Source: Bacteroidota bacterium (GTDB lineage: Bacteria > Bacteroidota > Bacteroidia > UBA7662 > JAIXUI01). Taken from it: a DNA stretch of 34,085 nt. Below, one piece after another: positions 2-13,105 of this stretch. Position 1 is the stretch's first letter. Every line of letters starts with the position of its first letter. The DNA is taken from NCBI GenBank assembly GCA_027484125.1, contig JAIXUI010000141.1, positions 1 to 34,085 on the forward strand, in the 5' to 3' direction. Both the position numbers and the translations under genes were made by a program. Below the pieces are notes generated by a model. The model searched no databases, was not told the origin of the DNA, and was given only the letters and a program-made list of their open reading frames with translations.

Positions 2-3000
2 ACTACCACTACCATGTCTTTCTCTTGGACTGATAACGCAGTTTCAGCTCCTTTAGAAACCGGATATGCCATCTATCGTTCTGATGATGGTGGTACTACG
101 TATAACTACGTCGCCAACATGCCGGCTAATGCCACCAATTACACAGACATCGGCTTGCTCTCTGGTACTACTTACCTGTACAGAATCTATGCTGTCAATG
201 AAGGACAGTTTTCTTCTGCCTTTGCAGCTGTTTCAGGTTCTACTATATCTGCTCCTACTGTTACCTCTGTGGGTAGCGGAAACTGGAATTCTCCTGCTAC
301 TTGGTCAACCAATACGGTTCCTGCTGCGTCACAAAATGTAGTGATTGCTTCAGGTCATACGGTTACGATTAACAGCTTGTCTGCAACTTGTAACAACTTA
401 ACGGTAGATGGAACTCTTCGTTATGATAATGTTTCTAACTCAGCACTTGATGTTGTGAACAATGTGACTGTTTCTGCTTCAGGTAATTTTAACTTTGGTG
501 CTGGGGTAACGCTCACACACACCTTGAGAATTGGTGGCACAAGTGCTAATCCAAACGGACTTCAGTCAAATGGAAATCTGACCGTAAATGGAACATTCGA
601 TATGAGTGGTTCTTCTACGGTTAACGTTATTTTTGGCGGTACTTTCAACAGTACGGTTAGTGGTAACGGCGCTACGCTTGACTTTTCTACTGTAACCGTT
701 AATAAAGGCTCTTCCAATGTTGCGATTGTTGACATGGCACGCCCATTTACGGTTAATGGTGCGAACACTTCAGGATTCCTGTCTTTAGTAAACGGAACAT
801 TTAAAATCTCAGGTTCTTTTGCACAATCGAACCCGATTTTTTCTACTATCGCTTACGTAATTCCTGCCAATGCCGGTTTCTGGTTAGATAACGCCAACTT
901 TACCGTTACAGGTCAAGCTGGTTCAGCCGGTAATCAATTAGGTCTTCTTAGACTTTCTTCTGGAACTTTCAACGTTGGTACAGCTGCAGATCACCACTTG
1001 TTGTTTAGCACAGGTGCTACCTTCATCATCGACGGTGCCGCTGCAACCCTTAACGTGGCAGGTGCGTTTGGTTATCCTGCTACAACCTTGGCCTTTAATT
1101 ATACCCAATCTGCGGGTAACATCAACGTAGCGACTTTAGGTAACTCTTCTGCGAACCCTTCGTTTGCACTATCCAGTGCGGGTATCATTGCGAATATTAC
1201 AGGTGGTACTGTTACCATCGTTCGTAGAGCGATGACTACTGGTGTTTCTCCAACTCCTTTAACTGACTATTGGGTTGGACTTTTTGGTGCAGGATTCCTC
1301 AACATGACGGGTGGAAATCTTCGTCTTGGAAATGGAAGCACTCCAACTCCTAATAGCTTCATTACGGTTAATAACGTAGTAAGTGGAGGTACAGGTTATG
1401 CAATTGGTCAGGTACTTACAGTGTCTGGAGGTAGTTTTACCACAGCTGCCACCGTTACGGTTACCAGCATTGGAGCTGGTGGTGTAATTACCCAGGCCAT
1501 GGTAAACAACCCCGGGGTTTACACTTCACTCCCAACCGGAAATATAACCTTAACTGGCGGTACAGGCTCTGGAGCTGTGGTAACCCTTGGTTCTGGTACT
1601 CCTTTCAGAGTTCGCGGAGATGTTTTTAATCTTGACATTGATAACGCTAACACGAATAAATCAGCAGTCCTCCTAACTACCCTTGTAGTAAGAGGTACTG
1701 CTTTAGTTAGCCCCAACACATGCTTAAGTTTGAATGGCTTTGTGTTATTATATAGAGGTGCTTTGTTGGAGAATAATGGTGTTATTGACGCATTTCCAGC
1801 CGGAAGCTCATTCAGCTTTTCTGGTCTTGTGCCTCAGACATATTCTGGTACTGGATTTAACTCACCAGCTGCTGCTTTTGGTATGCAGAATCCAAGTGGT
1901 TTAACTTTAAATGCACCAATACGTTCTCAAAGAATCAATTTCTTTGAAGGGTCAATCAATAATTCTGTTTTAAATAATATCATTTTCGGAACGGGTTCTA
2001 CCACTGTAGTTGTTCAGTATGGTAACTCAGGCGCACCAACTGTTTCTGGAAATTTTGCCACTACTCCGGCTTTCAATGTTGGAACTGCACTTTATGCAGT
2101 TTTAATTGCTCAGGAAACCCAACAGCACATCACTGGTCCTGAAATTCCAACTACTACAGCTAACGGAGTTTGGGCTAGAACCATCAATTTCTTTTCCTTA
2201 ACCAATAATTTCGGAATGAAGATTGTTGGAGGCGATTTGATCATTGGTGACGGCTCTGGAAGTTTAACTACTGCACCTAGCCTCACATTAGGGGGTGGAA
2301 ACGTGGACTTAAATGGAAACAACCTGGTCATTGGTTCTTCCACTGCTGTTCCCGGCTCACTTGCTTATACCTCAGGTTTAGTGGTAGGTTCTGGAAGTAT
2401 GACTCGCTGGTACAACGGTACGGTTAAGTCAGCAGCCTCGGTAGATGGTCTTTTCCCAATGGGAGCAAATACCAACAACCGAAGCATTTTGATTAACCCT
2501 GCTACCTCACTTAGCAGTGGGGGTACTGTTTCAGTAACTGTCAACTCTGCTGGTGGTTTAACACCAATGACTTCCTTCAATGAAGTTTCTGGAGTATCAG
2601 GATTTGTAAACTATAACAACATCGACACACGTTCCAATTCAGGTTGGGCAATTTCTACCGGAAATGGACTTGGTAACGGAAGCTGGACCATTCGTGCTAC
2701 AACCACGAATATGATTCAGTCTTTCAATGCCGGAGATTTGAGACTTGTATCCTCTACTGCTGCTAACCCAATCGGTAGATCATTAGCGAATACAGGAGCA
2801 GCTCCAAATACTCAGGTCAATAAGATTTTGACTTCTACTGCTTTATTGAATAACACCTTCCATGTTGGTACTCAAAATTCCAATGCACTTGCGGTAGTAA
2901 CAGCAATTGCCAGTGGTGACTGGGGTAATGGTGCTACTTGGAATTCAGGTACCCCCCCAACTGCTGCTGAAGCTGCTGTAATTCCTTCTGGAGTTACGGT

Positions 3001-6000
3001 TAATGTTCAAGGAGGTGGTTCATACAATGCCAGCAAATTGACTATTGATAATGGTGGTACTTTAAACTTGAATGCCAATACCCTTAACATAGGTGGTAAC
3101 GTGATATTGAATGGTACTTTCAACGTAGGTGGTGGAACGCTCAATGTAGAGGGTTCAGCTGAGGTTACTTCTGCAACACCTGTTCTTGGTGGAACAGGAT
3201 ATGCTGTAAACAATGTGGTTACAGTTACAGGAGGTTCAGGAAGCAGCGCTACTTTCCTTGTAACCTTGGTAGATGGTTCAGGTGGTATTCAATTGGTGAA
3301 TATTCTTAATCCCGGAAGCTACAATGGACTGCCCACTAACCCAGTTTCGGTAACTGGTGGTTCAGGCTCCGGTGCTACTTTTAACCTCGGTATCTCTACA
3401 ATTGCTGTTGCAGTTGGAACTACAGGTTCGTATCAGCAAACCAATGGTACTGTTGTAGTTGGTACTGCGGGTGGCCACAACAGAACCTTCCAAAACAATG
3501 GTATCACCAATGTTTCAGGTGGTTCACTTGATATCAATGGTAATGCTCAGTTTGCTCAAACAGCCAATGCATTATTTAGTCAGTTAGGTGGTAACATCAA
3601 TGTTGACCCTAACAGCGGAAGTGCTTCTACTTCTGTTCCAGAAGGTATTGATGCGGTTTCATTTGCTGCTACTCCAATCGGAGTTCAGTTGAATGGTGGT
3701 ACCATGACTATCGTTGACCCTGTTTTCTCAGGAACTGGTTTATCAATGAGCTATACGCCAACAATCACCACAAACTGCGTAGGTCATACCCTTGTTTTAG
3801 GTGGTTCATCAGGAACAAACTCAAATAACTCAGTAAACGGCTTCCGTGTAAGCGGTGGTTTGAGTTTCCGTTTGGGTAATGTAACGGTTAATGGTGGTTC
3901 GGGTTCAGGACGTTTTGTGAATCTTGGCCCTGGCACCACTCAAACCATTCTTGGAAACTTTACCATCAACTCAGGTTCTGTTTACCGTCAGGGAGCTACA
4001 AACGTGAACATTGCTGGAAATATTACCAACAATGGAACATGGTTTACTTCAAATGTTCCAACTACCGGTGGACTTGTTAACCTTTCATTCGCGGGTAGCG
4101 GAAACCCTGTTGCACAATCATTAGGAGGTACTGGTACTTTTAGAAACTCAACGCCAACTATTGCAATTGCTTCAGCAGGTACTGGATATTCTCTTGGAGA
4201 TATCTTAACTGTTTCAGGTGGCACATTCACAACTGCTGCTACCTTTAAAGTTACAGGAGTTAACCTTGGTACTATTACTGCACTTACCCTTGAAAGTCCT
4301 GGTGCATATACAGCAGAACCTTCTGGTACATTGAATTTAACAGGTGGTACTGGAACTGGAGCAACCGCTACTTTAACAGCAGGCTCCTTCATTTCAACAG
4401 GTTCTTTTGCTAGTTTAACCTTCAACAACAACTCCTATTTACAAGGAGCAACAGTTAATGTTAACAACTTGGTTGTTGCGGGAACATTGAATACAGCGGG
4501 TTCTCTTATTAACTTGGGAACCAACCACTTAACCTTAGGAACTAGCCCAACTTCGCCTGGCTCGCTTACTGCGGGAACAGGATTCTTCATTTCTACAACC
4601 GGTACGTTTACTCGTTGGGTCGGAACTGGTGCTGTAACGATTACAGCAGCAGCTGGACAATTCCCATTTGCAACTACACAAGGTTTAGACCGTACGTTCT
4701 TTATGGGACAAACCTCTGCTACAACCGGTGGAACCATCAGTGTTCGCTTTGCAGATGCTAACGGATTAGCTACCATAACCCCATCTTATACCGATGGAAC
4801 GGTTACTGTTGATAATCGTACAGCAGGTGGTTGGGTAGTTTCTACCGGAAATGGATATGCCAGTACTACCATGTCGGTGCAACTAAGAGCTGCTAGCATT
4901 TTCCAAAATGTTACCACTCCTGCTGACATGAGAGTGACAGCTGCAAACGGTATTGCTCCTGGTTCACATGGTACTACCTCTACCTTTGTTTCTGGTGTAG
5001 CTAACGTAAGCAGGACAGGTATTTCCTCTGCTTTGTTTAACAGCACCGGAACTTTCTACTTGGGTGGAAACAGCCAGAACTTCCCAGTTATCTATACAGC
5101 GATTGCTTCAGGAAACTGGAATGATGCTGCAACTTGGGATTTGAACGCGGTTCCTCCTTCAACAGCCAATGTAGTAATTGCTACACCATACAATGTTACT
5201 GCTGATGGTACTTCAGCTGCAAATGGTGTTACTGTTCAATCTAATGCTCAATTAACCTTATCAGGTGGTACCCTTGCTATTGGTCCTGCAGGCGGTGGAA
5301 ACCGTATGTTGGATGTGAGTGGTACAGTTGCAATTTCTTCTGGTACTTTGAATGTAAATGGATTTGCCAACTTCGGTAGCGGTTCTTCTTTCAACATGTC
5401 AGGTGGTAACTTCAACATTGATGGTAACTCGGGCACAGCAGCTACTAGTGTAGCATCCAACCAAAACTTGTTGAACTTCTCAGTTGGTTCAGCAGGTAAT
5501 GCAATCACTGCTACAGGGGGTACCATTACCATTGTGGACCCACATGCTAATACAGGGTTGTCTTTTGCGATTAACCGATCTAATTTATCAAATGCAAATT
5601 GTGACTTCAGTGGCACTTTGGTACGCTTTGGAGATGGTACCAGCACAACAGCTGGTGTAGCAAGCCAAGGCTTTAGTGTTGCTACTTTGTTCTCTGGAGG
5701 CATTGCAGTTCCACTTGGTAATGTTCAAGTAAATGGAGGCTCTGGCACTAACCGTTTTGTAAGTACTACAACCAGTACTGCGCAAGCCGTTGATATTACC
5801 GGTACACTTACCATCAACGCAAGTTCTGAAATGCAGATCCCTACAGGTGGTACCTTGAACATCAATGGAACCTTGACGAACAATGGAACCTTAACCTCCA
5901 TTGGAACCCTAGCAGTTAGAGCGACTGGAAATCTATCTCCTATTGCCTCTACTATTGGTGGTTCAGGAACCTTCCGTAACCTTGCGGCTTCACCTACTGC

Positions 6001-9000
6001 CAACTTTACCAACTTCATTATGAATAATGCTTCCGGTGTTACAATTAGCACCCTTAGCAATACAGGAACTGGTACAGTAAGCGGTACATTAACCATGTTA
6101 GATGGTATTATCGATTTAGGAGCTAATACCTTCACGCTTGGTACTTCAGCTTCTTCTATCGGAACGTTAACCTATACTGCCGGAAGCTTTGCTGCTTCTA
6201 CCGGCTTCTTTAGCCGTTGGGTTGGTACAGCTACTTTAACCCAAGCAGGAACCTTCCTCTTCCCATTCAGCTTTGTTGGAAATAATCGTTCAGTCAACTT
6301 TAACTTGCTTAATAGCGGTTCGTTAACTGCCGGAGGCCGAATTTCAGCTCGCCATAATGGTGCAGTTGGAAATACCAACATCACTTCCTTCACTGATAAT
6401 GGTGTATTAGTAGATCGCACCACCAACTCTTCCTGGACATTTGCTCAAAGTGGATTGAACCTCGGTACAAATTCACTGGTTCCTACTGCTTCAGTGATTG
6501 GTGTCGGTGGTTTCTCAGATGTAACAACACTTCGTTTTGTTAATGGAACGGATAATACAACAACAGGTTCTGCAGGAACAGGCACATTTGCCACTCCGGC
6601 AGTATCTCGTGCCTTCCCTAATGCAGCACTTTCTTTAGTTTTCAACAACACTACCTACCGAGTTGGTGGAAATGCTACTACTGCTACATTGGCTCCTACT
6701 ACTTTTGCAATTGCAACAGGATCTTGGGAGGATGTGAATACATGGAACACAGGAATTGTTCCTGATGCTACCAATGACGTAGTGATTACTGGTGGAACTA
6801 CAGTTACTGTGGACGCACAGGCTGCTGTATGTAACGGTATCGCTATCAATCCTAATGGTGGTTTGACGCTTTCAGGAAGCACCTTAAATGTTGCATCTAG
6901 TGCATTTAATAGTGGTAATCTTACAGTTTCCGGCGGTACGCTTAATGTAACCGGAGCGGCTGGTCTTGGACTGAACAACTTCTCTATGTCAACGTTTAGC
7001 ATGTCAAGTGGTAATGTAAATGTTGGTTCAGCAACTTCTGCTAACCGCATCTTCCATTCAGCAGGTACATTTGCTATAAGCGGTGGTAATTTGAATGTGT
7101 TTGGAACCGCCAATTTGTTTGGAGCTAATGTGAGCCAAACTGGAGGTGTTATTGCTGTAGATCCAAACAATGCCAATAATGCAGCTTCAAGTGCAACTGC
7201 TAATGTGGTTTCTTCCGCAGCAGTAGTTAGTGCAGGAACTTCTTACACTGTTGGAACTATCGTAAATGTTTCTGGTGGCGTATTTACCCAGCCAGCACAA
7301 CTTCAGGTTGCTACGCTTTCTGGAACCGGTGTTGCCACTGTAAGGGTAGTGAACCCAGGTATTTACTCCGTACTTCCTACAAACCCAGTAACTGTAACTG
7401 TTTCTTCAGGAGCTGGTTCTGGTGCAACCTTCAATCTTACTCCTGGTATCTTGACGATGGGACTTACTGTTAACACAGCTAGTAGCTTCAGCGGAGGTAC
7501 TATTCAAATTGTAGATCCTGCCATTAGCACTTCAGCTGCAGGAACAACACAAGCATTGAGAATTACTGGTGCTGCTGTTAATAACAGTGCATTTAGTGGT
7601 AGCCACACCATTCAATTTGGAAATGGTGTAAGTACTACTAGTAGCAACGGTGATGGTTTTGTTCTGGAAACTTTCGGAAATAACTCAGTACGTGTTCCTG
7701 TTAATCATGTAACCATCAGTGGTGGTAACCTTGGAAGTCGCTTCCTTTCTCCAGGTCTTTTGGGAATGAACGTTCTTGGAAATCTAACTATCTCCAATAA
7801 CAGTGAATTCAACACATTAGCATCAGGTGGAGAAGTAGTACTTGGTGGAAATATCAGTGTTGGCACAGGTGGAAACTTCACTGCTCTTCGCAATATCTCA
7901 TTAGGTAGTGGTGCTACTTATTCTGCGGTTAATGCTCAGACTATTTCCGGTCCCGGAACCTACCGCAATGCAGTATCTGGTTCTACCGGTAATCTTCGCT
8001 CTGTAACCATCAATAATGGTAATGGAATTACTCTAAGTACCCCAATTATTCTTGATGCAGCTTCTACCCTAACACTCACCAATGGAACGGTAACCACTAG
8101 TTCTACCAATACGCTGACGCTTCGCAATCCATTCACCACAGCAATCTCTGGAGGTTCTTCCAGTGCTTACATTGTGGGGCCGGTTGTAAGAAGAATGTCG
8201 GCTTCCTTAACTGGTGATTCAACTTATGCCTTCCCAGTTGGAGGTGCTGTTTATGCTCCGTTTGAGCTGGTTGCTGCAAAAACACTGAATGCTGGTACAA
8301 CAGACGTTCGTGTTGTCTTGAATGATGTGGCTCCAACCGGTAACCCTGACAATGTGGTTCTTGGCGCACTCAACAACCGTTACTGGCAAGCTTCAGTTAC
8401 TTCTTCTCCTAACTACTTCTCTAGTGCGGTAGTAAGAGTTACAGAACAAGGCCTCGGAGCCAACAATCGTTTGGCTCGCTCTTCTGTTCTAAGTGGAACT
8501 TATACCAGTATTTCATCAGCTCCTGTAACTCCGTTCACTACTATCAGTTCTGATACTGTAACTAGTCTTGGATTCTTTGCAGTTGGTAGCCTGGTCAATT
8601 GTTCAGGAACTCCAGTTGCCGGAACCGCTGCTGCGGCAAACAACTTTGTAGCTCCTGGAGGAACTACTGTGATTAGCTTAAGTGGTCAAACTGCTGCTAA
8701 TGGTATCACTTATCAGTGGCAAGAAAGTAACGATGGAGTATCTGGTTGGGTAAACGTGACTAGCGGACAAAATGGCAATACCACCGCGTACACTACCCCA
8801 GCTCTTGGTGGTACTAAATACTATCGTTGTGTTGTAAACTGTGCGTTTGGTTCTTCCTCTAACTCCAATGTGGTAGGTGTATTTGTTCCATTGAACCTAG
8901 ATTACGATGTTACTCGTCAGACTGGTCAGACTTACACTTCTATCATGAACTCTGGTGTCAACTTTAGTTGGGTTGGTACAAGCACTGATGAAGCATACAC

Positions 9001-12000
9001 TGCACCGCTAGATTTGGCAACACTTGGATTTAATTTCAATTACCAAGGAGTTCCAGTAACTCAATTGCGTGCTCAGGTTAATGGATTCTTAACCTTTAAC
9101 CCTGCTACTACTGCAGGCTTTACCAACAACTTCGCTGCTGCTGGAACTATGGGTGTGCTTGCTCCAATGTGGTTCGACTTTGTAACCTCTCCAAATAATA
9201 ACACACTTGCAGCACTTCAGAGCTCCATCAAGTATCAGCTTACTGGAACCAACAATAACCAAGTACTCACCATAGAGTGGGCCAACCTTGAGTTATTCTC
9301 GTTTTCTGGACCTAGCTTAAACTTCCAAGTGAAGCTTTATGAAGCAACCGGTGCAATCGAGTTTATCTATGGCAACATGATTGCCATGAATGGAAATGCT
9401 AATGTGGTTTATGCATATACCTCAGGTATTTCAGCATTAAACTCCACTGGTGGTGCGGGTAACTTTATTTCTCAACAACTTGAGAACGTAAACAACTTCT
9501 CGAATGCTACTTCGGTTAACAACCTGGCTATCGTGCCAAGCTGTAACACCAAAGTTACCTTTACTCCTGGTACTAACGCTGTACTACCTACAGATCCTTC
9601 TAACGCAACTCTGAACGACAACTGCTCAACTGCAACCCTATTAACAGTAGGTAATGGTGCAAATGCTGATCCTTGTATCGTTTATCGTACAACAGGTTCA
9701 ACGGTTTCTACAAGCGTTCCTAGCTGTTCTGCGAATAGCTCCAACTTACAACAACGTGACGTTTGGTATCAATTCACCTTGACCAATACTTCCAATGTTA
9801 CTGTTACTGTTGTTCCTGGTGGAAACTATGATGCAGTTCTTCAGTTAATCAGTGGTGCTTGCGGTTCTCAAACTTCTTTGAACTGTGTTAATGCTGCTGG
9901 TACTGGATTAACAGAATCTATTACTGCAACTGGTCTTACCGCTGGTACTTACTACATCCGAGTATGGGGTGCAACTGCCAACTCTACCGGTTACTTCAAC
10001 CTTGGTTTGAATGCTGTATTAACCCCTCCAGTTAATGACAACTGTTCAGGTGCTCAGGCTCTTACCCTTGGAACCTCTGTTAACTCTGGTAATACTGCAG
10101 GAGCCACTACATCAACTGGTATTACCATTCCAACTTGTGCAGTTGGTACTGCTGATGATGATGTATGGTACACCTTTACTGCCAACAGTACCTACACTCG
10201 CTTGACTGTTTCTCCAGTAGCCCCTTATAACGCAGTTGTACAAGTGATGACTGGCGCATGTAATGCACTTGCTAACTTGGTTACATGCGTAAACAACTCT
10301 GGTGCTGGTGGTGCTGAAATCTTGGATTTGACAACTGTTGCTGGTACAACTTACCGTGTACGTGTTTACCACTTCGCAAGTGGCTCTACGCCAACAACTG
10401 GATTCTCAATCCTCGCTGAAACGCCAACTGCCGCTTGTCCTGCTCTAACCTCACCATCTGATAACCTGTCGAACCTTGATCCTGCTGTAGATAATACTTT
10501 CAACTGGGCTGCTTCTGCAGGTCCTGGTACAGGAATTACCTACACTTTCCAAGTGTCAACTTCTTCCAACTTCGGCAGCATGCTTGTAAACCAATCCGGT
10601 TTATCTACACTTAGCACTACCATTACTGCAAACACTCTAGCTCAGAGTACCAATTACTTCTGGAGAGTGTTGGCGGTTAATGCAAACGGTACTTCTGCCA
10701 ACTGTACTACACGTCAGTTTGCAACTTCCGGAACATTGCCAAGCTGTGCTACAGGTTTACTTCCTGCTAATGGAGCTACCAACCAGGGAACTTCCCTTAC
10801 TCTTTCTTGGGGTATTCCTTCAGGTAATCCAACCGGTTATGATGTTTACCTAGCTACTAACCAAACCAACGTTGCTAACCAAGCTGTCTTTACTCGTGTG
10901 AGTCAGAATCAGGCTGGTAATAGCTATGTGGCTTCTGGTTTGCAAAACAACACGACCTATTTCTGGAAAGTTGTTCCACGTAACCTTGCCGGCGTAGCAA
11001 CAGGTTGTGCTACACAATCATTTACTACTATTCCAACTCCTCCAGTTAATGATGACTGTGCATCAGCGGTATCTCTCACTGTAAATGGTGCTTTGTTAAG
11101 TGGCGAAAGCTCTTCTAATGCTACTCAAACTTTAGCTCCTTGTGCTGCGGCTCAGGCGAATGATGTTTGGTATAAGTTTACAGCCAATGGTAACCGCGCT
11201 CAAGTGACGGTTGTAGGTGCTGGTGGTTTGAACGCTGTAGTTCAAGCTTTCGGCGGAAGCTGTGGCTCATTAGTGCCAGTTGCTGGTAGTTGTACTAATG
11301 CAACTGGAAACAACGGAACTGAATACATGATTGCAACTGGACTAACAGCTGGTCAAGAGTATTTCATCCGTGTTTACAATGCAAACGCTGGTACCTCTAG
11401 CGGAACTTCCTTCTCTATTAAAGTGGAGAACATCATCACTTGGAGCGGAAGCGCTTGGGTTGGTGGTACTCCAGATGCAAGCACCGGAACTACTCGAGTA
11501 CGTGTTCCTGCCGGAACTTCTGTCACTTTACCAAATGGATCTACCATCGGTGAGCTTGTCGTAGAAGGTAACGGTCAAGTAAGCGTAGGTACAGGAACTG
11601 TGACTATCAATGGTAATGTATCTTTCGTATCGACAGGTGTAACTACTTTCGGCGGAACTGGTACAATTGTTTTTGGAGGTACAGGTACTCAAACACTTTC
11701 TGGTGCAACGGTTCAGTTCAACGGAACAGTTAGAATTGCTTCAAGTTCCACTTTGTCAACAACTACTTTGATTCTCTTGAATAATGGTACCTTGATGCAT
11801 GGAACCGGTACTGCTGGCGGTGGTGGTTCTTTCACCGGAACATTACGTCAAAGAAGAGCAGGTTCTACCAATCCATTGTTGTATAATTTCTGGTCTTCCC
11901 CAATGAGTGGATCTACCATTGCTGCTTTGAACGGAAACAATAACTATTCATTCAATGCGGCTACTCAAAGCTGGACTCCTGAGATTTCATCTGCTGCAAT

Positions 12001-13105
12001 GATTCCTGGTGTAGGCTACTCATCCACCGGTAGCAACTCTGGTTTTGGAACTGCCGGTACACGTCAGTTCAGTGGTATGCCGAATAATGGAAACATCAAC
12101 GTTCCGATGTCTGTAAATCCAGGCATTAACGATGATTGGAACTTGGTTGGTAACCCTTACCCAAGTTCTATCGATGGTGCAACCTTTATTGTTGACAACG
12201 CTGCTAATATGGTTGGCCCTCTCTACTTCTGGAACACAGCCTTTACCACTAACGTTAGTAACAACAACTTTACAGGTGCTGATTATGTAACGCGTACATT
12301 GGCTAACGCTCCGTTCCAGGTAGGGGTAGCTCAAGGTTTCTTTGTTGATGCTACCGCTACTAGCCTTTCCTTCACTAACAGCATGAGAAATGCTACTGCT
12401 GCTTCCATGTTCCGTACCCAGAACAGCATTCAGAGAATTACCCTTCTGGCACACAATAGTCAGAATGTGGCTAATAATACTTTGATTGCTTTCACTGCTG
12501 ATGCAACTGATCAGTACGATAGACTTTGGGATGGACGTAAGAACAAGGGAAATCCAGTTGTAAGCCTCTATAGCCGCTTGAATGGTGAAGACATGGCAGT
12601 TAATGCAATGGGTGAACTTAATTCAGCCAAAGTAGTTGAGCTTGGTCTCGATGTTAATGTTACTGGCCAGCATACGTTTATGATAGACCAACTAGAAAAT
12701 GTGGATGCCTCTACTGGTATTTACCTTCAGGATATGGTTACCGGAACTATGCACAACCTTCGTAACAGTGCGTATGTATTCAACGCAACTTCCACAGGTT
12801 CATTTACTGGTCGCTTCTATCTCCACTTCCAGCCTCTTACTACTTCCGTTCCAACTATCCAGCAAACCAAGCCTGGTATGTTCTTCAGCGCTGATGTGCT
12901 TCGCATCACCGGCCTTGCAGAAGGAACTGTAGTTGAGTCTGTTCAAGTGATGGATCTTAGCGGTCGTCGCGTATTCAATGCGCAAGGACTTGAGCACAGT
13001 GGTACTGTTGAACAAAGAGTAAATCTCCCACTCGGTGTTTACTTGATTGAAGTCTCTACCAACCGCGGTGTATTTACTGAGAAAGTTTTCAAATCAGTGA
13101 AGTAA
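2..13105 (+). CDS. Giant secreted multidomain adhesin-like protein with T9SS sorting domain (5' partial)
   Basis: The frame is open through the left edge (Thr codons precede the first ATG at 14), so the N-terminus and signal peptide lie outside. Numbering from that ATG: FnIII-like domain 1-80; four beta-solenoid cassettes starting with G8-like GxWxxxxTW motifs near 87, 965, 1697 and 2233; Ig-like domain about 2863-2958; a beta-sandwich stretch 2962-3195; PPC-like domains opening with N-D-[ND]-C at 3201, 3341 and 3679, with two FnIII-like domains (3475-3575, 3577-3675) between the last two; another G8-like module near 3807; a WNLVGNPYPS stretch near 4043; and a type A T9SS sorting domain at about 4300-4363 (VMDLSGRRVF...LPLGVYLIEV). 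Composition is Ser/Thr/Gly/Asn-rich with few charged residues. Such proteins are exported by the Sec and then type IX systems and are usually cell-surface-bound or released. Adhesion is inferred from architecture; no catalytic domain is visible. A terminator follows directly. Confidence 0.93.
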   Translation, partial: TTTTMSFSWTDNAVSAPLETGYAIYRSDDGGTTYNYVANMPANATNYTDIGLLSGTTYLYRIYAVNEGQFSSAFAAVSGSTISAPTVTSVGSGNWNSPATWSTNTVPAASQNVVIASGHTVTINSLSATCNNLTVDGTLRYDNVSNSALDVVNNVTVSASGNFNFGAGVTLTHTLRIGGTSANPNGLQSNGNLTVNGTFDMSGSSTVNVIFGGTFNSTVSGNGATLDFSTVTVNKGSSNVAIVDMARPFTVNGANTSGFLSLVNGTFKISGSFAQSNPIFSTIAYVIPANAGFWLDNANFTVTGQAGSAGNQLGLLRLSSGTFNVGTAADHHLLFSTGATFIIDGAAATLNVAGAFGYPATTLAFNYTQSAGNINVATLGNSSANPSFALSSAGIIANITGGTVTIVRRAMTTGVSPTPLTDYWVGLFGAGFLNMTGGNLRLGNGSTPTPNSFITVNNVVSGGTGYAIGQVLTVSGGSFTTAATVTVTSIGAGGVITQAMVNNPGVYTSLPTGNITLTGGTGSGAVVTLGSGTPFRVRGDVFNLDIDNANTNKSAVLLTTLVVRGTALVSPNTCLSLNGFVLLYRGALLENNGVIDAFPAGSSFSFSGLVPQTYSGTGFNSPAAAFGMQNPSGLTLNAPIRSQRINFFEGSINNSVLNNIIFGTGSTTVVVQYGNSGAPTVSGNFATTPAFNVGTALYAVLIAQETQQHITGPEIPTTTANGVWARTINFFSLTNNFGMKIVGGDLIIGDGSGSLTTAPSLTLGGGNVDLNGNNLVIGSSTAVPGSLAYTSGLVVGSGSMTRWYNGTVKSAASVDGLFPMGANTNNRSILINPATSLSSGGTVSVTVNSAGGLTPMTSFNEVSGVSGFVNYNNIDTRSNSGWAISTGNGLGNGSWTIRATTTNMIQSFNAGDLRLVSSTAANPIGRSLANTGAAPNTQVNKILTSTALLNNTFHVGTQNSNALAVVTAIASGDWGNGATWNSGTPPTAAEAAVIPSGVTVNVQGGGSYNASKLTIDNGGTLNLNANTLNIGGNVILNGTFNVGGGTLNVEGSAEVTSATPVLGGTGYAVNNVVTVTGGSGSSATFLVTLVDGSGGIQLVNILNPGSYNGLPTNPVSVTGGSGSGATFNLGISTIAVAVGTTGSYQQTNGTVVVGTAGGHNRTFQNNGITNVSGGSLDINGNAQFAQTANALFSQLGGNINVDPNSGSASTSVPEGIDAVSFAATPIGVQLNGGTMTIVDPVFSGTGLSMSYTPTITTNCVGHTLVLGGSSGTNSNNSVNGFRVSGGLSFRLGNVTVNGGSGSGRFVNLGPGTTQTILGNFTINSGSVYRQGATNVNIAGNITNNGTWFTSNVPTTGGLVNLSFAGSGNPVAQSLGGTGTFRNSTPTIAIASAGTGYSLGDILTVSGGTFTTAATFKVTGVNLGTITALTLESPGAYTAEPSGTLNLTGGTGTGATATLTAGSFISTGSFASLTFNNNSYLQGATVNVNNLVVAGTLNTAGSLINLGTNHLTLGTSPTSPGSLTAGTGFFISTTGTFTRWVGTGAVTITAAAGQFPFATTQGLDRTFFMGQTSATTGGTISVRFADANGLATITPSYTDGTVTVDNRTAGGWVVSTGNGYASTTMSVQLRAASIFQNVTTPADMRVTAANGIAPGSHGTTSTFVSGVANVSRTGISSALFNSTGTFYLGGNSQNFPVIYTAIASGNWNDAATWDLNAVPPSTANVVIATPYNVTADGTSAANGVTVQSNAQLTLSGGTLAIGPAGGGNRMLDVSGTVAISSGTLNVNGFANFGSGSSFNMSGGNFNIDGNSGTAATSVASNQNLLNFSVGSAGNAITATGGTITIVDPHANTGLSFAINRSNLSNANCDFSGTLVRFGDGTSTTAGVASQGFSVATLFSGGIAVPLGNVQVNGGSGTNRFVSTTTSTAQAVDITGTLTINASSEMQIPTGGTLNINGTLTNNGTLTSIGTLAVRATGNLSPIASTIGGSGTFRNLAASPTANFTNFIMNNASGVTISTLSNTGTGTVSGTLTMLDGIIDLGANTFTLGTSASSIGTLTYTAGSFAASTGFFSRWVGTATLTQAGTFLFPFSFVGNNRSVNFNLLNSGSLTAGGRISARHNGAVGNTNITSFTDNGVLVDRTTNSSWTFAQSGLNLGTNSLVPTASVIGVGGFSDVTTLRFVNGTDNTTTGSAGTGTFATPAVSRAFPNAALSLVFNNTTYRVGGNATTATLAPTTFAIATGSWEDVNTWNTGIVPDATNDVVITGGTTVTVDAQAAVCNGIAINPNGGLTLSGSTLNVASSAFNSGNLTVSGGTLNVTGAAGLGLNNFSMSTFSMSSGNVNVGSATSANRIFHSAGTFAISGGNLNVFGTANLFGANVSQTGGVIAVDPNNANNAASSATANVVSSAAVVSAGTSYTVGTIVNVSGGVFTQPAQLQVATLSGTGVATVRVVNPGIYSVLPTNPVTVTVSSGAGSGATFNLTPGILTMGLTVNTASSFSGGTIQIVDPAISTSAAGTTQALRITGAAVNNSAFSGSHTIQFGNGVSTTSSNGDGFVLETFGNNSVRVPVNHVTISGGNLGSRFLSPGLLGMNVLGNLTISNNSEFNTLASGGEVVLGGNISVGTGGNFTALRNISLGSGATYSAVNAQTISGPGTYRNAVSGSTGNLRSVTINNGNGITLSTPIILDAASTLTLTNGTVTTSSTNTLTLRNPFTTAISGGSSSAYIVGPVVRRMSASLTGDSTYAFPVGGAVYAPFELVAAKTLNAGTTDVRVVLNDVAPTGNPDNVVLGALNNRYWQASVTSSPNYFSSAVVRVTEQGLGANNRLARSSVLSGTYTSISSAPVTPFTTISSDTVTSLGFFAVGSLVNCSGTPVAGTAAAANNFVAPGGTTVISLSGQTAANGITYQWQESNDGVSGWVNVTSGQNGNTTAYTTPALGGTKYYRCVVNCAFGSSSNSNVVGVFVPLNLDYDVTRQTGQTYTSIMNSGVNFSWVGTSTDEAYTAPLDLATLGFNFNYQGVPVTQLRAQVNGFLTFNPATTAGFTNNFAAAGTMGVLAPMWFDFVTSPNNNTLAALQSSIKYQLTGTNNNQVLTIEWANLELFSFSGPSLNFQVKLYEATGAIEFIYGNMIAMNGNANVVYAYTSGISALNSTGGAGNFISQQLENVNNFSNATSVNNLAIVPSCNTKVTFTPGTNAVLPTDPSNATLNDNCSTATLLTVGNGANADPCIVYRTTGSTVSTSVPSCSANSSNLQQRDVWYQFTLTNTSNVTVTVVPGGNYDAVLQLISGACGSQTSLNCVNAAGTGLTESITATGLTAGTYYIRVWGATANSTGYFNLGLNAVLTPPVNDNCSGAQALTLGTSVNSGNTAGATTSTGITIPTCAVGTADDDVWYTFTANSTYTRLTVSPVAPYNAVVQVMTGACNALANLVTCVNNSGAGGAEILDLTTVAGTTYRVRVYHFASGSTPTTGFSILAETPTAACPALTSPSDNLSNLDPAVDNTFNWAASAGPGTGITYTFQVSTSSNFGSMLVNQSGLSTLSTTITANTLAQSTNYFWRVLAVNANGTSANCTTRQFATSGTLPSCATGLLPANGATNQGTSLTLSWGIPSGNPTGYDVYLATNQTNVANQAVFTRVSQNQAGNSYVASGLQNNTTYFWKVVPRNLAGVATGCATQSFTTIPTPPVNDDCASAVSLTVNGALLSGESSSNATQTLAPCAAAQANDVWYKFTANGNRAQVTVVGAGGLNAVVQAFGGSCGSLVPVAGSCTNATGNNGTEYMIATGLTAGQEYFIRVYNANAGTSSGTSFSIKVENIITWSGSAWVGGTPDASTGTTRVRVPAGTSVTLPNGSTIGELVVEGNGQVSVGTGTVTINGNVSFVSTGVTTFGGTGTIVFGGTGTQTLSGATVQFNGTVRIASSSTLSTTTLILLNNGTLMHGTGTAGGGGSFTGTLRQRRAGSTNPLLYNFWSSPMSGSTIAALNGNNNYSFNAATQSWTPEISSAAMIPGVGYSSTGSNSGFGTAGTRQFSGMPNNGNINVPMSVNPGINDDWNLVGNPYPSSIDGATFIVDNAANMVGPLYFWNTAFTTNVSNNNFTGADYVTRTLANAPFQVGVAQGFFVDATATSLSFTNSMRNATAASMFRTQNSIQRITLLAHNSQNVANNTLIAFTADATDQYDRLWDGRKNKGNPVVSLYSRLNGEDMAVNAMGELNSAKVVELGLDVNVTGQHTFMIDQLENVDASTGIYLQDMVTGTMHNLRNSAYVFNATSTGSFTGRFYLHFQPLTTSVPTIQQTKPGMFFSADVLRITGLAEGTVVESVQVMDLSGRRVFNAQGLEHSGTVEQRVNLPLGVYLIEVSTNRGVFTEKVFKSVK
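1382..7456 (+). repeat. Four copies of a ~72-residue GTGY...VSGG...NPGxY...GGxGSGA module inside the giant protein
   Basis: Related protein modules lie at residues of about 457-530 (bases 1382-1603), 1058-1130 (3185-3403), 1387-1460 (4172-4393) and 2405-2481 (7226-7456). Each opens with G-T-[GS]-Y, continues with a [VL]-[TN]-V-[ST]-G-G strand, has a P-G-x-Y turn and a [LE]-P-[ST] step, and ends with a G-[TA]-G-[ST]-G-A strand. The solenoid sequence between them does not share this pattern. Copies are diverged at DNA level, so this is an old protein-domain duplication rather than a recent tandem expansion. From memory, similar glycine-rich Y-G modules occur in phage and bacterial surface proteins; I could not search for them. 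Confidence 0.8.

Follow-up and report, generated by a model that had tools for sequence, protein, structure and literature searches.

We analyzed a 34,085-nucleotide stretch of DNA from a Bacteroidota bacterium (contig JAIXUI010000141.1 of assembly GCA_027484125.1), here called the window, and found that its first open reading frame (ORF; 2..13105, on the forward strand like every feature below) encodes a giant protein whose architecture is very likely modular. Four successive cassettes each begin with a G8 module, continue as a solenoid and end in a homologous closing domain, a plan that an earlier note on this DNA had proposed and that our analysis supports. The closing domain is still unnamed: it occurs in two types, neither of which has a Pfam or NCBIfam model.

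Four cassettes with recurring ends

The cassettes span residues 86–964 (257..2893), 965–1696 (2894..5089), 1697–2232 (5090..6697) and 2233–2891 (6698..8674), numbered in the frame that starts at window nucleotide 2. Each opens with a G8 module, located at residues 87–162 (260..487), 966–1042 (2897..3127), 1698–1773 (5093..5320) and 2235–2310 (6704..6931), respectively. The motif GxWxxxxTW occurs at residues 93, 972, 1704 and 2240, where 0.002 occurrences are expected per shuffle of residues 1–2900; these matches confirm the four G8-like openers of the earlier note, which had placed them 4–7 residues lower than our numbering does. The Pfam G8 model (PF10162) scores above its curated cut-off for modules 1, 2 and 4 (38.4, 24.5 and 28.8 bits). 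Pfam did not list module 3, which was recognized only by the motif and by a custom G8 profile; this profile detects all four modules at E ≤ 2.5e-22 but had been seeded with them. A possible degenerate fifth G8, followed by a short solenoid, lies ahead of the C-terminal region (residues 3813–3879; 11438..11638). Its E-value with the custom profile, 1.2e-5, is close to those of other weak matches in solenoids, and the region is common to two paralogues in the same genome (L037 and L038).

Each cassette ends in a closing unit. C1–C3, designated type A, lie at residues 772–962 (2315..2887), 1507–1693 (4520..5080) and 2042–2228 (6125..6685), and C4, designated type B, at residues 2698–2872 (8093..8617). 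An R[RW] pair lies at residues 802, 1538, 2072 and 2730 and an FP pair at 818, 1554, 2087 and 2744, with C4 carrying RR in place of RW. C1–C3 are similar to one another in pairwise comparison (z = 10.2–15.1 versus shuffles), whereas C4 shows no pairwise similarity to any of them (z = −0.6 to 0.5), and an iterated profile grown from C1–C3 never reached it. When used as a query on relatives, C4 instead identified the second family, type B. Because iteration carried the first type B profile into type A rows, we compared the two families through disjoint sets of rows (70 of type A and 18 of type B). This profile–profile comparison gave 97.1% (E 5.7e-11), with 73–92% for smaller, strict type B sets and 0.1–0.3% for controls (reversed, G8, and the GTGY module described below). 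Judged by these profiles, C4 is a separate subfamily and a remote relative of C1–C3. The type B rows group together in a tree of 83 closers, 16 of 17 with support of 100/89 and all 17 with 86/57, although the latter support is not strong. All four closing units described in the earlier note are thus present, and the homology among C1–C3 is clear; the kinship it extended to C4 holds only at the profile level. The result by which the note would have been refuted, a lack of significant similarity among the four units in profile alignment, did not occur. The near-fixed spacing that it reported between a closer and the next module also stands, with corrected values: the first three closers have 170, 166 and 168 residues between RW and the following G8, rather than 140–169. 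No G8 of comparable strength lies downstream of the fourth.

With the G8 modules and closers removed, the interiors of cassettes 2, 3 and 4 are collinear and score z = 12.0–17.8 against one another, whereas the interior of cassette 1 does not clearly resemble them (z = 1.2–3.6). The cassettes contain four inserts of a module of ~75 residues, which we call GTGY: M1 in cassette 1 (residues 457–529; 1370..1588), M2 and M3 in cassette 2 (1057–1129, 3170..3388; 1386–1458, 4157..4375) and M4 in cassette 4 (2405–2479; 7214..7438). In the cassette comparison, their bounds were slightly wider (455–530, 1056–1131, 1385–1458 and 2403–2483). Cassettes 2–4 therefore carry two, none and one, at different sites. 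The measured cassette lengths of 879, 732, 536 and 659 residues bear out the variation claimed earlier (about 540–880); once the inserts are removed, they become 803, 582, 536 and 578, and cassettes 2–4 align end to end. Together with the high interior scores, this alignment supports whole-cassette homology for cassettes 2–4. The length spread among these three comes mostly from GTGY inserts and not from coils. The earlier proposal that solenoid coils were gained or lost between fixed ends survives in one coil-scale difference, a ~45-residue stretch near the start of cassettes 2 and 4 that is absent from cassette 3.

Within its own genome, the GTGY module is confined to the giant ORF, and it occurs in 8 of 295 genomes of the class. 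One of these (G201) likewise carries it inside G8 cassettes (locus L096). The module matches the phage protein family PHROG phrog_32129, for which M3 provides the best stretch, as well as 30 of 50,697 phage records, many of them annotated as head decoration or Hoc, and at least 58 loci from viral contigs. It is shared with Hoc-type head decoration proteins of T4-like phages, such as YP_004009865.1 of Enterobacter phage CC31, at 44–48% identity over 91% of the query among the matches listed (25 of the 30). The likeness is limited to the GTGY module itself, and the phage copy resides within a Hoc/GDSL protein. In a poorly resolved tree, built from 64 of 77 module rows after near-identical ones had been removed, a single clade of the four inserts was not rejected (approximately unbiased test, p-AU 0.158).

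Distribution and order of the two closing-domain types

Type A closers occur in 11 of 60 genomes, the window's own included, and in 75 of the 295 class genomes; type B closers occur in 184 of the 295. A set of 65 type A rows (A5) matches no Pfam family except G8, and does so in 14 rows; the Pfam G8 model misses many relatives, although some A5 rows contain no G8. We judged as chance the NCBIfam matches to A5 rows (kduD and others, one row each) and the Pfam matches to rows of the type B set, A7 (SusE and DUF6898, one row each). The 17 rows of type B gave no convincing family match in Pfam or NCBIfam.

The two types differ in what follows them. In our first protein set, a G8 module lies downstream of 62 of 74 type A units and 1 of 19 type B units, counts that include a few fragments and the near-duplicate locus L048. 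The distance from a type A unit to the next G8 is −2 to 13 residues in 36 of 55 cases, 167–180 in 16 and 245–304 in 3. Two relatives, L092 and L094, have the longer spacer of ~170 residues, and each contains six PKD_6 stretches, the best of which (L092 553–626 and L094 1882–1952) directly follow a type A unit; from the number and length of these stretches, each long spacer apparently holds two. L092 also has SprB repeats (PF13573).

Type B is the last closer in all 13 proteins of the first set that contain both types (14 of 14 with L048 counted). Because this set was picked mostly through type A matches, it favors such an outcome, and we also examined a second set of 40 regions picked by type B matches. 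Here, type B is last in the single protein with both types, and of 48 type B units, 42 lack any downstream G8, 5 have one in the next 400 residues and 1 has one farther away. Locus L181 (genome G267) carries a G8–type B cassette four times in tandem. A strict rule that type B is only terminal is rejected by this locus and by the 5 of 48 units with a G8 within 400 residues. These sequence patterns suggest that type A acts as a coupler and that type B usually, though not always, acts as a terminator.

Predicted structure, function and history

We modeled two segments with AlphaFold2, the junction of C1 with the second G8 module (mean predicted local distance difference test score (pLDDT) 89.2) and the whole of cassette 2 (pLDDT 80.3). 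The models show a parallel beta-solenoid that runs from G8 into a closing beta-sandwich. Structural comparison with VIA places the cassette 2 model closest to tailspikes of the beta-helix type and to surface adhesins (Z up to 11.6; Z ≥ 8 in 49 of 205 chains), in line with the earlier note's expectation of a solenoid, and the G8 part of the junction model likewise aligns to beta-helix proteins. A Foldseek search against predicted viral proteins returned one short match (E 6.7e-4), and the G8 part has some close matches among phage proteins.

For the closer part of the junction model, the top VIA ranks are mostly GAIN (Z 7.1, 6.9 and 6.3), FIIND (6.5 and 5.7) and ankyrin ZU5 (5.8–6.0) domains. 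The best GAIN match (Z 7.1, root-mean-square deviation 4.6, 150 residues) stays below Z = 8, a level typical of common arrangements, and has no counterpart in sequence matches. A domain of the GAIN/ZU5 kind would be expected to have an autoproteolytic HL[ST]-type motif close to its end. Such a motif is absent at the ends of the closing units; the ORF has just HIT at 709 and HLT at 1509, neither at a unit end. Because Z is below 8 and Foldseek gave no significant Protein Data Bank (PDB) match, we treat the GAIN/ZU5 likeness as a lead.

The closest known parallel is the human TMEM2/CEMIP2 ectodomain. The crystal structure of TMEM2 (PDB 8C6I), as described in PMC10206443, places G8 in a continuous right-handed beta-helix that is followed by a beta-sandwich (domain X) and left regular by inserted domains. 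The AlphaFold2 models reproduce this order: a parallel beta-helix continues from the G8 and ends at a beta-sandwich. Unlike TMEM2, the window protein has four helices rather than one and a type IX secretion system (T9SS) tail, and its inserts are GTGY modules rather than lectin-like and small sandwich domains. The two lectin-like domains of the TMEM2/CEMIP family are missing from a Pfam scan of the ORF, and for this reason we do not file the protein as a family member. The TMEM2 PDB chain was not among the sequence matches listed for the cassette and closer profiles, nor was TMEM2 among the fold-search matches listed for the cassette model, where its absence proves nothing. A search of the open-access literature did not find 'G8 domain' together with Bacteroidetes or Bacteroidota, which, being confined to open access, is weak evidence of absence.

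Export by the T9SS is well supported by the sequence. The ORF ends in a T9SS type A sorting domain (TIGR04183, residues 4309–4364; 12926..13093) that scores 25.3 bits against the NCBIfam curated cut-off of 23, and at E ≤ 0.001 the same genome has 87 matches to the T9SS tail, including 84 above the cut-off. Besides G8, the Pfam scan identified fn3, three galactose-binding-like T9SS-associated stretches (GBD_T9SS_assoc, PF23759, best at 9614..9985) and the sorting tail at a sub-threshold score.

We think it probable that the T9SS exports this protein to the cell surface, where its four beta-solenoid rods would act as a stalk or adhesin. The N-terminal two thirds would form a row of four rods, each nucleated by a G8 module that forms the cap and first coils of the parallel beta-helix and each ended by a beta-sandwich of ~165–185 residues (type A in the first three, type B in the fourth). 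A sandwich of type A leads directly into the next G8 and could thereby couple the rods end to end into a long extracellular stalk, whose rods carry the GTGY domains as insertions, presumably in loops. Such a protein may bind carbohydrates or particles at the cell surface, either as an adhesin or as a stalk for display, and contacts would likely be made through its GTGY, fn3 and galactose-binding-like domains. It resembles the SprB-type giant T9SS adhesins of gliding Bacteroidota in being giant T9SS cargo and in having a relative, L092, with SprB repeats, but has no SprB repeat match of its own in Pfam. Several observations weigh against this picture. The folded models cover just one cassette and one junction; residues 95–179 of the cassette 2 model, which include insert M2, have pLDDT < 50; a Foldseek search of the PDB with both models found nothing at E ≤ 0.001, so that the fold assignments rest on the second look with VIA; and the adjacent genes (MORN, transglutaminase, DPP IV and tRNA synthetase) offer no clue to function.

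We prefer a stalk or adhesin to an enzyme because of the rods, their adhesin-like fold neighbors, the PKD and SprB domains of relatives and the lack of a catalytic family. The best structural neighbors of cassette 2 do include tailspike depolymerases, pectin methylesterase and alginate lyases, an observation in favor of each rod being a polysaccharide lyase or hydrolase, a role that many proteins with a single beta-helix have and that has been proposed for CEMIP. This seems unlikely to us, however, as the Pfam scan of the ORF contains no catalytic family above cut-off, TMEM2, itself a G8 beta-helix protein, is reported to have no detectable hyaluronidase activity (PMC10206443), and four diverged tandem copies would better fit a structural role. 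It could also be objected that the ORF is rich in T, G, S and N, and that the closers might be merely the similar last coils of a low-complexity solenoid rather than a domain. We consider this highly improbable: on reversed and block-shuffled ORFs, all four profiles gave zero matches at E < 1e-3, by which we rejected low complexity as the source of closer similarity; AlphaFold2 predicts a confident separate beta-sandwich; and the closer types are spread across the class.

How the four cassettes came together is a separate matter. Among 73 cassettes compared, the best partner lies in the same locus for 13 of the 65 in multi-cassette proteins and for none of the four in the window. Each window cassette has its best partner in another genome or protein, and we therefore rejected recent copying; by contrast, genome G112 (L089 and L091) shows recent tandem amplification of such cassettes. 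The cassettes could have been assembled by shuffling or recombination among different G8 proteins instead of by duplication within the gene, given that all four partners lie in other proteins, that cassette 4 falls among the other type B cassettes and that the interior of cassette 1 is unlike the rest. We find this account somewhat doubtful, since the interiors of cassettes 2–4 are collinear, a single C1–C3 clade is not rejected even though the three do not form one in the tree (p-AU 0.279), and the same pattern would be expected from an old duplication with later divergence, with L092 and L095 retaining orthologous A1, A2 and A3. Old duplication and divergence is the plain reading of these sequences. 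The whole-cassette duplication claimed in the earlier note accordingly fits the collinear cassettes 2–4 but not the interior of cassette 1, and duplication in the window's own lineage is not demonstrated.

More broadly, and tentatively, the closers may represent an undescribed GAIN/ZU5-like superfamily, a universal C-terminal cap and coupler of G8 beta-helices that builds extensible Bacteroidota T9SS stalks whose rods host small modules that also occur in decoration proteins of phage capsids. Naming the closing domain would allow many giant 'hypothetical' T9SS proteins to be parsed into countable rods, and expression of bacterial cassettes would allow the role of G8, still unclear in TMEM2/CEMIP and fibrocystin, to be tested.

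The truncated ORF and its near-identical counterpart

The window is one entire contig of a 3.33-Mb genome in 167 contigs, and the contig edge truncates the 5′ end of the ORF, leaving 4367 readable residues. A complete, 97.4% identical ORF of 4681 residues from stop to stop is present at L048, in a pond metagenome-assembled genome labelled Sphingobacteriales bacterium; from this counterpart, the window ORF lacks ~280 N-terminal residues. The L048 ORF, with its N terminus present, begins MKNTYRFGQVLRGAMWAALLLLFATRVDAQ, a start that was inspected by eye for an N-terminal signal peptide. Its N-terminal domain, which falls outside the window, is 33% identical to window residues 2967–3248, a resemblance from which two copies of one more unnamed domain would flank the cassette array.

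Nucleotide identity between the window and L048 has a background of 99.2% over 12,269 nucleotides, interrupted by three patches of low identity at 1605–2134 (64%), 4526–4590 (82%) and 8972–9208 (66%). In the first, located directly past insert M1 in the solenoid of cassette 1, residues 535–690 are 65% identical, with a nonsynonymous divergence (dN) of 0.29 and a synonymous divergence (dS) that was not computable and was taken as saturated. These patches suggest local allele replacement or chimeric assembly.

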